A stretch of DNA of 64,000 nt from contig JABJKS010000103.1 of the NCBI GenBank assembly GCA_018660265.1, forward strand, positions 1 to 64,000. Direction: 5' to 3'. Below, in pieces: positions 1,979-16,472 of the stretch (position 1 is its first letter; every line of letters begins with the position of its first letter). The notes under the pieces are model-generated. The model did not search any database. It saw only the letters and a list, made by a program, of their open reading frames with translations, and was not told the origin of the DNA. The position numbers were made by a program, and so were the translations under genes. This DNA comes from Rhodospirillaceae bacterium (GTDB lineage: Bacteria; Pseudomonadota; Alphaproteobacteria; GCA-2731375).

Positions 1979-3121
1979 ATGATGGAACTTCAGGGGATTT
2001 CAAGTGTGCGGTGGCGTTGTTTAGGGATCGCACTGGCCGGTTTGGCTTTGATGCTAACAGCGACGCCCATCCAGGCCGAGGATACGCGCGTGGAGGTATT
2101 GCAACGCCAACTCGCCGAACGGGACAAGGTCATGCTCGAACTACTGCGGCGCGTTGAGACGCTTGAAAAGCAAATTGGCGTGCCGCGCGCGGTGCGGGAC
2201 AGCGCCGAGGCAAGCAAATCGGTTGCCGTGAACAAAACCGCGTCGGCGCCTGGATCAGTCATCGTCACTGAACGGATGGCCGAGCGGGCGCTGGAACGCT
2301 CCCTATCCCGGGAGGGGGCCTTATTGCTGCCCACAGGTGTTTTGGAGGTGGAGCCCAGCCTAACCTTTACCCGGCAGGAGGACGCCACATCGCGTTTTGT
2401 CACGTCCGGCGGCTTGATCGTCGCGGGCGAGACGGAAATCAATGCCAACCGTTTTTCGGCCGATCTGGGCCTGCGTTTGGGATTGCCGTGGGACGCACAA
2501 CTGGAACTCGGTCTGCCCTACCGGCGGGCGGAGGTCGAGACCGTGACAAATGTTGGCTTTGCGCCGATCACCACATCGGGCAGTTCAGGCGGCGGTCTTG
2601 GGGATTTACGCATTGGGCTCGCGAAGAGCTTACTGCGCGAGGGATTGTGGCGGCCTGATCTGGTCGGACGTTTTACCTGGAATACGGCCTCTGGTGAAAA
2701 CCGCGACAATGGCGTTTCCCTGGGCGGCGGTTTTCATGAACTACAGGCCTCCCTGACGGCAATTAAGAGACAGGATCCGGTGGTTTTTATCGCTGGTCTG
2801 TCCTACCAGCATAGCCTGGAAAAAAACCAGATTACGCCGGGGCCGGTGATCGCCACAAATCTTGGCGCTGCCATTGCCTTGAGCCCCGAGACCTCCCTGC
2901 GTTTCTCCCTCTCTGGTGCCTACCAAGGCGAAACAGAACTGTTCGGAAGCGATGTCGATGGCAGCGATCAGGTAATCGGCAGCTTTATCATTGGCAGCTC
3001 AACCTTACTGGCACCAGGTGTCTTGTTGAACGGTACTTTGGCATTTGGCTTGACGGACGACGCCGACGATATGTCGATACTGTTCTCTCTGCCCATTCGC
3101 TTCAACACGCCATTGTTTTGA
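1979..3121 (+). CDS. Outer-membrane beta-barrel with N-terminal coiled coil (FapF-like)
   Basis: 380 aa from ATG 1979 (a second ATG follows at 1982), 2 nt after the peptidase stop. Residues 1-33 are a signal peptide ending IQA. Residues 38-66 form an amphipathic coiled coil with hydrophobic heptad positions (Leu41, Leu45, Met52, Leu55, Val59, Leu62, Ile66). The rest, from about residue 125, is alternating beta-strand sequence with glycine-rich turns, of the kind in the phenol-degradation MetA/FapF transporter family, ending in LPIRFNTPLF with a terminal aromatic as in outer-membrane proteins. FapF is a trimeric pore plugged by such a helical region. Function is inferred from architecture and neighbours; a generic outer-membrane transporter is the alternative. 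Confidence 0.8.
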   Translation: MMELQGISSVRWRCLGIALAGLALMLTATPIQAEDTRVEVLQRQLAERDKVMLELLRRVETLEKQIGVPRAVRDSAEASKSVAVNKTASAPGSVIVTERMAERALERSLSREGALLLPTGVLEVEPSLTFTRQEDATSRFVTSGGLIVAGETEINANRFSADLGLRLGLPWDAQLELGLPYRRAEVETVTNVGFAPITTSGSSGGGLGDLRIGLAKSLLREGLWRPDLVGRFTWNTASGENRDNGVSLGGGFHELQASLTAIKRQDPVVFIAGLSYQHSLEKNQITPGPVIATNLGAAIALSPETSLRFSLSGAYQGETELFGSDVDGSDQVIGSFIIGSSTLLAPGVLLNGTLAFGLTDDADDMSILFSLPIRFNTPLF

Positions 3122-3210
3122 TAAATATGAGGAAGCCGAACAGGACATTTGAAAACCTCGTTTCAAAAATAACGTAGGTGGCCAGTGCGCATTGGAGTAT
3201 CGGAAGCGCT

Positions 3211-3843
3211 TTAGCCCTTCAGTCGCTCACTGGTTTCCGCATCCGCTTTCACCGCTGCCTCGTATGACGGCAGTGCTGTAACCCTGTCGAAATACGCTTG
3301 AACATTTGCGGGCAGCGCCTCGCTGACCATACGGCGATAGCCGCGCATGACGTAACAGATGCTCAAATCCGCAGCGTTCATGGTATCACCCTGCAAGTAA
3401 GCCCGGTCCGATAGGGCGGCATCAAGCGCCTCGACGCAGGCCGTCGCGCGGCCTTTCATTTCTGCCACGACGTCATCGATTTCCGGATTGAACGCACGCC
3501 TGTGGTTGACGACTTCACCCAGTGGTCGCGCGAATGTCGCCTCGGCAAACCAAATCCATTGCAGATAATGCGCGTAGGCCGGGTCATCCTTGCCCGGTTG
3601 CAGCCGACCGTTGCCATGGCGATCCAATACGTACTGCATCATGGCGCAGGACTCGAACATCGTCAAATCACCCTCAACCATTACCGGCACCTTGCCCACC
3701 GGGTTCAAGGCCCGCCACTCCGGCGTGGCGCGGTATTCGGCAGCAAAGTTCACCGGCACGATTTCATACGGCACGGACAATTCTTCGCACACCCAGATGA
3801 CGCGAAATCCGCGCGTTCCAGGCGAATGGTAAATTTTCAACAT
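3211..3843 (-). CDS. Glutathione S-transferase family protein
   Basis: 210 aa. The ATG at 3843 follows GGGAGC on the minus strand; a longer reading frame to 3939 has no ribosome site and adds a non-GST extension. The N-terminal thioredoxin-fold domain (MLKIYHSPGTRGFRVIWVCEE, then NPVGKVPVM and the ESCAMMQYVLDRH glutathione-binding segment) is followed by the all-helical C-terminal domain with the N-capping motif TMNAADLSICYVM. It is one of four GST-fold proteins in the window and lies convergent to the barrel gene. The substrate cannot be read from sequence; detoxification or catabolism via glutathione adducts is likely. Confidence 0.9.
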   Translation of the reverse strand: MLKIYHSPGTRGFRVIWVCEELSVPYEIVPVNFAAEYRATPEWRALNPVGKVPVMVEGDLTMFESCAMMQYVLDRHGNGRLQPGKDDPAYAHYLQWIWFAEATFARPLGEVVNHRRAFNPEIDDVVAEMKGRATACVEALDAALSDRAYLQGDTMNAADLSICYVMRGYRRMVSEALPANVQAYFDRVTALPSYEAAVKADAETSERLKG

Positions 3844-13365: not shown

Positions 13366-13404
13366 TAAAAAAGGAGCCCACCGACGACCTGCCGGCGGGC
13401 TCCT
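13366..13404 (-). terminator. Rho-independent terminator downstream of the methyltransferase
   Basis: On the minus strand AGGAGCCCGCCG (13404-13393) pairs with CGGTGGGCTCCT (13383-13372), 12 bp with one mismatch and a 9-nt loop, followed by a run of T residues (13372-13366). It lies 61 nt beyond the TAG at 13465, and so fits a transcript that covers the reading frame past the internal TGA. Confidence 0.8.
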
Positions 13405-13464
13405 CAATTCGCGACAAAATAGTATCAGCTACTCATTCGGCTACGCTTTAGGTCACCGTAACAG

Positions 13465-14244
13465 CTACCGTAGCGGCTTTTGGGCCATAAAGGCATAGCC
13501 AAATACCTCAAACCGGCGGGCGTTGGGTTCGCCATTTGCGCCGCCGAAAGTATCCACGGGTGGGCCGATCTGCCCGTTCTTGAAACCTGTATCCAGCATC
13601 ATCTTCTGCCAGCCTGCACACGGCATGCCACCAGCGATTCAAGCAGTCCACAAATCAATATTACTGACCGCAGCCGCAGGGACCGGCTGTCCATTGGCGA
13701 TATCTGCAAATTGCAGAACCCCGCCAGGCCGTAAAATGCGCCAAATCTCGGAAAAGACCTTTTGTTTGTCCGGGCAAAGGTTGATCACACCGTTGGCGAT
13801 CACCACGTCCGCCTGGCCGTCTTCCACGGGCATGTCTTCCAGGATGCCTTCCCGGAATTCCACTTGATCCAGGCCCATGACGTCAGCCGACGCGCGGGAC
13901 TTAGCCAGCATTTCCCGGGTCATGTCGATGCCGATCACATGTCCCTCGGCACCAACCTGCTGGGCTGCGATGAAACAATCGAAACCGGCACCGGAGCCAA
14001 GATCGACCACCCGTTCGCCGGCTTGCAAAGACCGTAGTGAAAATGGATTTGCCACGCCCGCAAAGGATTCAACCGCCTGGTCCGGCATTGCGCCGACCAT
14101 CGCCTCGTCATAGCCCAGGCGTTTAGCCAAAGGCCGGCCCGTATGGAAATGGAACTCTCCATGGGGGTCGAGGGCAACGTCCCGGTACTTATCCTTCACA
14201 TCTTCACGCAGGGCGGCGGCATCGACAAGTGTGTCAGTGCTCAT
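13465..14244 (-). CDS. ArsM-like SAM-dependent methyltransferase with in-frame UGA, candidate selenoprotein
   Basis: The ATG at 14244 follows GGGAGAG. Codons 1-201 encode a class I methyltransferase (VVDLGSGAGFDCFIAAQQVG, VIGIDMTREMLAKSR, VIANGVINLCPDK) of the arsenite-methyltransferase type. A TGA follows at 13641-13639 (codon 202), but the same frame continues for 57 clearly coding residues, IAGGMPCAGWQKMMLDTGF through VDTFGGANGEPNARRFEV to GYAFMAQKPLR, ending at TAG 13465. The full 259 aa matches the family's length. ArsM-type relatives have a conserved substrate-binding Cys at this point (LW..CI.GA), so UGA probably encodes selenocysteine. The alternatives are a nonsense mutation or sequencing error. 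Confidence 0.78.
13601..13641 (-). promoter_or_regulatory. Candidate bacterial SECIS element following the UGA
   Basis: By eye, the RNA directly after UGA can fold into three short helices separated by internal loops: AUC/GAU, CUG/CAG and GCC/GGC, closing the loop GUGUGCA. The loop begins 18 nt after the UGA with a G, which fits the loose bacterial SECIS rules (stem-loop just after UGA, G among the first loop bases). No folding program was run and the pairing is imperfect. Confidence 0.4.
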
Positions 14245-14444: not shown

Positions 14445-16472
14445 ATGAAAACGCTCTCCATCAAATTGTTCGGACGCATGCTCGTATCCGATGAGAGCGG
14501 CGCGACATTGCCGATCAGCGGCAAGAAACGGCAGGCGTTACTGGCGTATCTGGCATTAAATCCCGATCAACCCCCCAGCCGGGACGAACTGATGGCCCTG
14601 TTGTGGGGTGATCGTTTTGAAAACCAGGCCCGGCAAAGCCTGCGGGAATGTATATCCAGGTTGCGTAAAGCCCTGACCGGTGGCGGAGGCGACATCGGCC
14701 CCCTACGGGCGGATCGCGATCATGTCTGGCTGGAACAGACGAATGTGCGCATAGATACCCGGACATTGTCGCAAATCGGAGGATTGGCGACGGCCGAGGC
14801 AGCCGTTGACCCGGGTCAGTTGGTAGCAGCTGCGGAACTTTACGATGGCCCGCTTTTGGGTGATCTGAACATTCAGCAGGCGGAATTTGACGACTGGTTG
14901 CAGGCCGCACGGGTCCGCCACAACGAAACAGCGGCAACGATACTGGCGCGGCTGGCAGGACTGTCGCTGCAGCATGGTGATGTTGAGAGAGCCCTGCAAT
15001 TAGGCCAGCGGATATTGTCCTTTGACCCATTGGATGAGGGTTCCCATCGGGCATTGATGGCGGTCCATATCCAGAATGGCCAGCCCAGCGCCGCCATTCG
15101 GCAATTTCAAGCCTGCGAAGATATTCTGCGCCGGGAACTGGATGTGGAGCCGGGACCGCGGACGCAGGCCTTGTATGATCAAATTCGCGCAGACTCGACA
15201 TCGGGCTCGACATCAGATCAGTCACAAAACCCTACATGGCCCGCCGCCGCGATTATCAACGCGTTACCCGGGCAGGCCCATAAGCCCCGCATCACCGTCC
15301 GCCCATTCACAAATCTAAGTGTCGAGGCGGATCAGGAATTCTTTGCCTCGGGCATCACGGCGGATATCGTCTCTGCCCTGGCGCGAAATCGCTGGTTGGC
15401 GGTGATCGCCCATCACGCCAGCACTGATTTTGCCGCAGCGCCGCCGAACGACGATGACGGTTTGGGTCAATTGCCCATCGATTATTTGGTTGAAGGCAGC
15501 GTGCGTAAAGCCGGTAACCGGGTACGCATCACGGCACAATTGCTCGATGCCGCCAACCGGGAACATATCTGGTAGGAACGCTATGAACGGGACCTGGCCG
15601 ATATTTTTGCCGTACAGGACGAAATTACCGAAACCATTGCGGCCCGCATCGAACCGGTGGTCGGGGCTTTGGAACGCAGCAGAGTGCTGCGCCGCCCAAC
15701 GCAGAATCTTGATGCCTGGAGCTACTATCACCTAGGCCTGGCCCGCTTTTACAAATTTACCGCTGCTGATAATCTAGAGGCGCAGGCCTTGTTCCAACGT
15801 TGTATTGCCCTGGATCCGGAATTCGGTCCAGCCTATGCCTGGTGGGCCTATGCCCTGGTGCTGTGCATGGTTTATTTCGATGCCGAACCAATTAAGGCGG
15901 ACCTGGACGCCGCCCTGGCGGCGGCAAAACGGGCGGTGGAGATCGATGAGCAGAACGCAGTTTGCCATATGATGCTGGGGCGGGTCCATCTGGCACGCTG
16001 TGAGTATAATGAAGCCTTGGCCAATTTGACCACAGCCCTGGAACGAAACCCGGGATTGGCCATGGCCCATTGCGGCATGGGTGACAGCCTGGCCTATGAA
16101 GGCCAGTTGGAAGCCTCCATCGGGCAATTTGAAAAAGCCATTCAATTGAGCCCGAACGACCCGCAATTATGGGCCTTTTATACCTACCGTTCCCTGGCAC
16201 ATTTCTTTGCTGAGGAATTTGAAGATACGGTCACCTGGGCCCAAAAGGCTATTCGCCTGCCGAACTGTCAATTCTGGGCCCTGGCCCATAAGGCCGCCGC
16301 CTTGGGCCAACTGGGCCGGACCGAAGATAGCGCCACGGCCGTGGCGTCGGTGCTGCAGGTTCAACCCGAATTTTGCCTTTCCTATGCCGAGGCCAAGCTT
16401 TTCTACATTAAACAGCCGGCGCAATTAGCACTCTATCTGGATGGATTGCGCAAAGCCGGATTTACTGATTGA
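14445..16472 (+). pseudogene. BTAD-type regulator with TolB-like domain and TPRs, interrupted by in-frame TAG
   Basis: The ATG at 14445 follows GAGAAGG. Residues 1-100 are an OmpR-like winged helix (KLFGRMLV, KKRQALLAYLALNPDQP, LLWGDRFENQARQSLRECISRLRKAL), and 110-260 a bacterial transcriptional activator (BTAD) helical domain. From about 285 comes a TolB-like domain (ITVRPFTNLSVEADQEFFASGITADIVSALA, VEGSVRKAGNRVRITAQLLDA). At 15573-15575 a TAG interrupts REHIW*ERYERDLADIFAVQDEITETI, where relatives read straight through (IWAERYDR); the same frame then runs through TPR repeats to 16472, 675 codons in all. Either the gene is freshly inactivated, the base is an error, or the stop is read through. 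It diverges from the candidate selenoprotein. Confidence 0.75.

Follow-up and report, generated by a model that had tools for sequence, protein, structure and literature searches.

Selenocysteine predicted at the acceptor-ligand position of a stand-alone ArsM-fold methyltransferase from a Rhodospirillaceae bacterium

The 64,000-nucleotide stretch of DNA from a marine Rhodospirillaceae bacterium analysed here (the window) encodes, with a probability that we put at about 0.7, a stand-alone selenoprotein: an ArsM-fold SAM-dependent methyltransferase in which the only acceptor-site ligand retained, that corresponding to Cys224 of CmArsM, is a selenocysteine (Sec) presenting a soft acceptor. Comparison with homologues shows that the codon is one for Sec, that the fold is that of ArsM, that Sec stands at the acceptor-ligand site and that both remaining As(III) ligands have been lost. 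The features on which this reading draws are as follows.

13465–14244, minus strand: coding sequence of an ArsM-like SAM-dependent methyltransferase, 259 residues with UGA as Sec (U202), from homologue alignment and fold match.
13774–13776, minus strand: codon for Cys157 (NLCxDK), kept in 20/21 clade members.
13639–13641, minus strand: in-frame TGA, codon 202, predicted Sec aligned with CmArsM Cys224, from its presence in the other close homologues that cover the codon.
13618–13620, minus strand: codon for Cys209 (Sec+7), kept by every Sec member of the clade and absent from the other three clades.
13605–13635, minus strand: bSECIS-like hairpin of 10 pairs, from family pairing, covariation and synonymous-site constraint.
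13371–13405, minus strand: intrinsic-terminator-like hairpin 3' of the stop codon.

The reading frame lies on the minus strand, which the earlier note had left unstated, and runs from an ATG at 14244–14242 through the TGA at 13641–13639 to a TAG at 13467–13465. The 57 in-frame residues that the note had described between TGA and TAG are all there, as are the two motifs that it reported beyond the TGA, VDTFGGANGEPNARRFEV and GYAFMAQKPLR, and its strong terminator 61 nt past the stop corresponds to the hairpin at 13405–13371, which has 15 pairs and a T tail and begins about 60 nt beyond the stop codon.

Codon 202 almost certainly encodes Sec. In a survey of 22 GTDB loci and three further genomes, TGA stands at this codon in 25/25 other close homologues that cover it (52–90% identity), with Cys or another stop in none of them; these homologues come from Alphaproteobacteria, Betaproteobacteria and Actinomycetota, and in relatives that share about 45% identity the position is occupied by a Cys codon, TGC or TGT. 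The comparison of the joined protein with its homologues, as proposed previously, thus reveals what is expected of a selenoprotein, a UGA that is conserved in frame across species and aligned with Cys elsewhere, and the homologues do not end before codon 202 but continue with conserved sequence on both sides of it. Between the window and eight relatives, pN/pS is 0.07–0.39 downstream of the TGA, close to the 0.11–0.30 of the upstream part, and the 57-codon tail is, by this measure, under purifying selection. Since the TGA is aligned throughout the close homologues, both flanks are conserved and pN/pS remains low after the TGA, a chance stop preceding random sequence can be excluded. In one homologous Sec methyltransferase gene (L082, genome G012, 2052–3266) some 1.2 kb interrupts the coding sequence shortly ahead of the Sec codon, and query residues 188–189 match on either side of the gap; the arrangement looks like an insertion.

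The hairpin that follows the UGA conforms to the published bSECIS rules summarised in PMC13188914, and falls within the range (13601–13641) that the earlier note had suggested for a SECIS search. Its apical loop, CGUGU, has five bases and starts 16 nt after the UGA. Across 24 sequences 92.5% of cells are paired and the covariation is 0.172, a value that none of 500 shuffles reached, and shifting the register of the hairpin along the same alignment reduces pairing to only 21–44%. The mean number of paired positions is 6.56 of 7, as against 5.19 ± 0.16 in synonymous-codon shuffles. One stem pair changes from G-C to U-A through the third base of the Leu/Val207 codon together with an Ala-to-Glu/Asp replacement at residue 210, and synonymous sites are constrained as well: Pro208, alone among the fourfold codons, does not vary (CCG in 25/25 sequences), and Gly206 is encoded by GGC in 23/24. 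The window's own copy has one A-G mismatch; folded as a single sequence, its post-UGA region gives no significant folding energy, such that the signal came only from comparison within the family, and an Rfam search of the window returned no matches.

Judged by gene content, the organism itself makes Sec. A genome without selB or selC would have counted against the reading in the earlier note, but in this one (5.5 Mb, 97% complete) selA, selB, selC and selD are all present: selB adjoins selA, ARAGORN identifies a tRNA-Sec with anticodon TCA (UCA), and there are two selD genes (C31:57158–58084 and C97:58106–59017), one of which has an in-frame TGA of its own. A selB gene is present in 15/15 genomes examined from the same family, including all nine that carry the methyltransferase, and in 7/8 genomes of other, distant carriers among the Alphaproteobacteria, Betaproteobacteria and Actinomycetota; the remaining carrier, L047, gave no selB match in a 2.9 Mb metagenome assembly that may be incomplete.

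Joined across the UGA, the protein has 259 residues and belongs to the SAM-dependent methyltransferases, with the SAM-binding Rossmann fold of ArsM. Its AlphaFold model (pLDDT 90) has ArsM as the best match in Foldseek, and VIA-align against the ArsM structure 4fr0 gives a Z score of 26.4 and an rmsd of 2.4 Å over 217 residues. The closest NCBIfam models are the arsenite methyltransferase model PRK11873 and three ArsM-like selenoprotein models, although the protein scores below the cut-off of each (218.7 bits against 263 for PRK11873, 216 against 510 for NF041537, 201 against 575 for NF041536 and 197 against 460 for NF047649). Sec202 aligns with CmArsM Cys224, so the earlier proposal that the UGA occupies the arsenic-binding Cys position of the ArsM motif holds, and the placement of Sec at the position of this ligand is strongly supported. 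The other ligands tell a different story from those of true ArsM relatives, which carry the motifs GCGNP (Cys72), SNCVxNL (Cys174) and CxxGA (Cys224); at the same sites the window's clade has FAGV, SNGV (or ANGV, GNGV) and UIAGG. The equivalent of Cys72 is Val and that of Cys174 is Gly in every clade member, and position 224 alone is kept, as Sec. Assignment to ArsM in PMC5552862 called for at least three of the four residues Cys44, Cys72, Cys174 and Cys224, and the window's protein, lacking the Cys72–Cys174–Cys224 set, falls below that number. We therefore accept that Sec occupies the acceptor-ligand site in a methyltransferase of the ArsM fold and, given the loss of Cys72 and Cys174 and the failure to reach any of the NCBIfam cut-offs, do not accept the name arsenite methyltransferase.

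Selenoproteins among SAM-dependent methyltransferases, which the earlier note mentioned, are indeed on record: arsM is given as a selenoprotein family in a 2008 survey (PMC2398784), and the entries of a 2026 review (PMC13188914) include fused forms as well as an arsenite methyltransferase whose Sec lies in a UxxG motif, also present in the window's protein. The methyltransferase domains of the fused families NF041537 (ArsM/AhpD), NF041536 (ArsM/DUF2284) and NF047649 (MTase/UXPK-star) align almost unshifted over residues 7–226, have Sec at the same UxxG position and, in the relatives retrieved, share Gly at the Cys174 equivalent. In contrast to them, the window's protein ends after the methyltransferase domain, with no fused AhpD, DUF2284 or UXPK-star, and its clade is without the Cys of FCGVGNPF, has its own Cys209 and Cys157, and has its SECIS-like hairpin in a different register. 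ArsM/AS3MT (PRK11873; CmArsM 4fr0) shares the SAM motifs, but has Cys72 and Cys174, and its part beyond residue 282 is unmatched. The Cys-type FAGV/SNGV methyltransferases (L048–L063), at about 45% identity, show the same loss of Cys72 and Cys174 and lie beside the same divergent regulator family, although they have Cys in place of Sec, neither Cys209 nor Cys157, and a different C-terminal tail. Sec also occurs in a second clade, which comes from the phylum of the L065 genome and includes AhpD-fused proteins; it combines FCGVGNPF, SNGV and U, and its best SECIS-like hairpin is the one in a different register. Whether this clade groups with that of the window depends on which long rows are included in the tree, and the trees neither establish nor reject a single origin of Sec. 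Members of the second clade (L117–L136) are either stand-alone or fused and all carry the TGA at the corresponding codon, and some AhpD-fused ones (e.g. L117, L118 and L120) have further in-frame TGA codons near the C terminus. A search for NF041537 in five outgroup genomes found none. The window's clade, stand-alone and lacking the As(III) triad, is a variant that reaches the cut-off of no NCBIfam model; Sec-containing ArsM-like methyltransferases as such are already published, and the clade itself may have been mentioned in papers on the fused forms.

The enzyme may work as follows. SelB, guided by the hairpin just past the UGA, would insert Sec at codon 202, and the selenolate of Sec202 would hold a soft acceptor beside the SAM methyl group, the candidates being metalloids that already carry some methyl groups, other metal or chalcogen species, and thiols or selenols; Cys209 opens the next helix and may serve as redox partner of the Sec or as a second ligand. 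The substrate would thus probably be soft and bound through a single selenolate. According to PMC3877260, three Cys bind arsenite, two bind methylarsenite and one binds dimethylarsenite, so a site with one ligand would be a better fit for a partly methylated arsenical, or for some other soft species, than for arsenite itself. The further proposal that the Sec clade has left arsenite chemistry, with the selenolate and the clade-specific Cys presenting a soft acceptor other than inorganic arsenite, we advance tentatively, as one that could well prove wrong.

A different role for Sec, primarily as a redox centre in which a U202–C209 selenenylsulfide switches or regenerates the methyltransferase, appears unlikely as the main explanation, albeit one with a specific basis: Cys209 is present in 21/21 Sec members of the clade and in 0/46 other sequences in the alignment, and in the model it starts the helix 209–219. 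Against this, the other Sec clade has Gly or Val at position 209, and the Cys209 codon (TGY) sits inside the SECIS loop, so that its conservation cannot be credited to the protein alone; under the loop rule a Gly codon could stand there too, so that the SECIS would not demand Cys. The selenenylsulfide is a real alternative or addition to the selenolate-acceptor mechanism. That the protein is instead an ordinary ArsM selenoprotein, in which Sec202, Cys209 and Cys157 rebuild a three-ligand As(III) site at new positions, we consider improbable. Its best sequence and fold matches are to ArsM, the UxxG arsenite methyltransferase of PMC13188914 provides a precedent, and an Acr3 arsenite pump gene is present elsewhere in the genome; but the Val and Gly replacements are universal in the clade, the PRK11873 score is too low, Cys157 is missing from the basal L047, and Acr3 is both common and on another contig. 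The near neighbourhood of the methyltransferase in the window contains no arsenic gene, and the earlier suggestion of arsenic as substrate is, with two ligands replaced in every member, not supported. The last alternative, that the TGA is a true stop in a decaying gene, a truncated 201-residue enzyme or a sequencing or assembly error, is rejected in each of its forms as highly implausible in view of a codon that is always TGA and never TAA, TAG or sense in 25 other sequences, purifying selection beyond it, the SECIS and the Sec machinery of the genome.

A regulator gene, divergently transcribed, flanks the methyltransferase gene.

14445–16472, plus strand: divergent regulator gene (Trans_reg_C, BTAD and TPR), interrupted by one TAG at 15573–15575, with relatives beside Sec-type and Cys-type methyltransferases.

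In two close relatives, as in the window, a divergent Trans_reg_C/TPR regulator lies beside the methyltransferase, and next to three Cys-type methyltransferases there is a regulator with about 50% identity in its C-terminal part; this shared regulator family supports a common function for the Sec- and Cys-type enzymes, as we infer. The TAG in the window's regulator is either a nonsense mutation or a sequence error, with Ser at this place in the L026 and L029 homologues and the remainder intact at 71% identity. No conserved operon partner was found in the Sec clade within flanks of up to about 4 kb. A three-Cys ArsM and the Sec enzyme occur together in one genome (G011), an argument against their being redundant. 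Several Cys-type methyltransferases (L050, L054, L062, L064 and G420) have a second ArsM-like paralogue, with LWAECVVGA or a similar motif, within a few kb.

Most known selenoproteins are redox enzymes, and a Sec at the acceptor-ligand site of a SAM-dependent methyltransferase is relevant to the question of why cells should bear the cost of Sec for reactions other than redox ones. Since this clade separates Sec from the classic As(III) triad, what this one residue does can be tested with the other thiols out of the way. Because gene callers halt at the TGA, the final 57 residues are lost, and the family is probably truncated in public annotations. Should the non-arsenite reading be correct, these proteins would represent a new selenium-dependent alkylation or detoxification activity, with its own divergent regulator, in marine Alphaproteobacteria.
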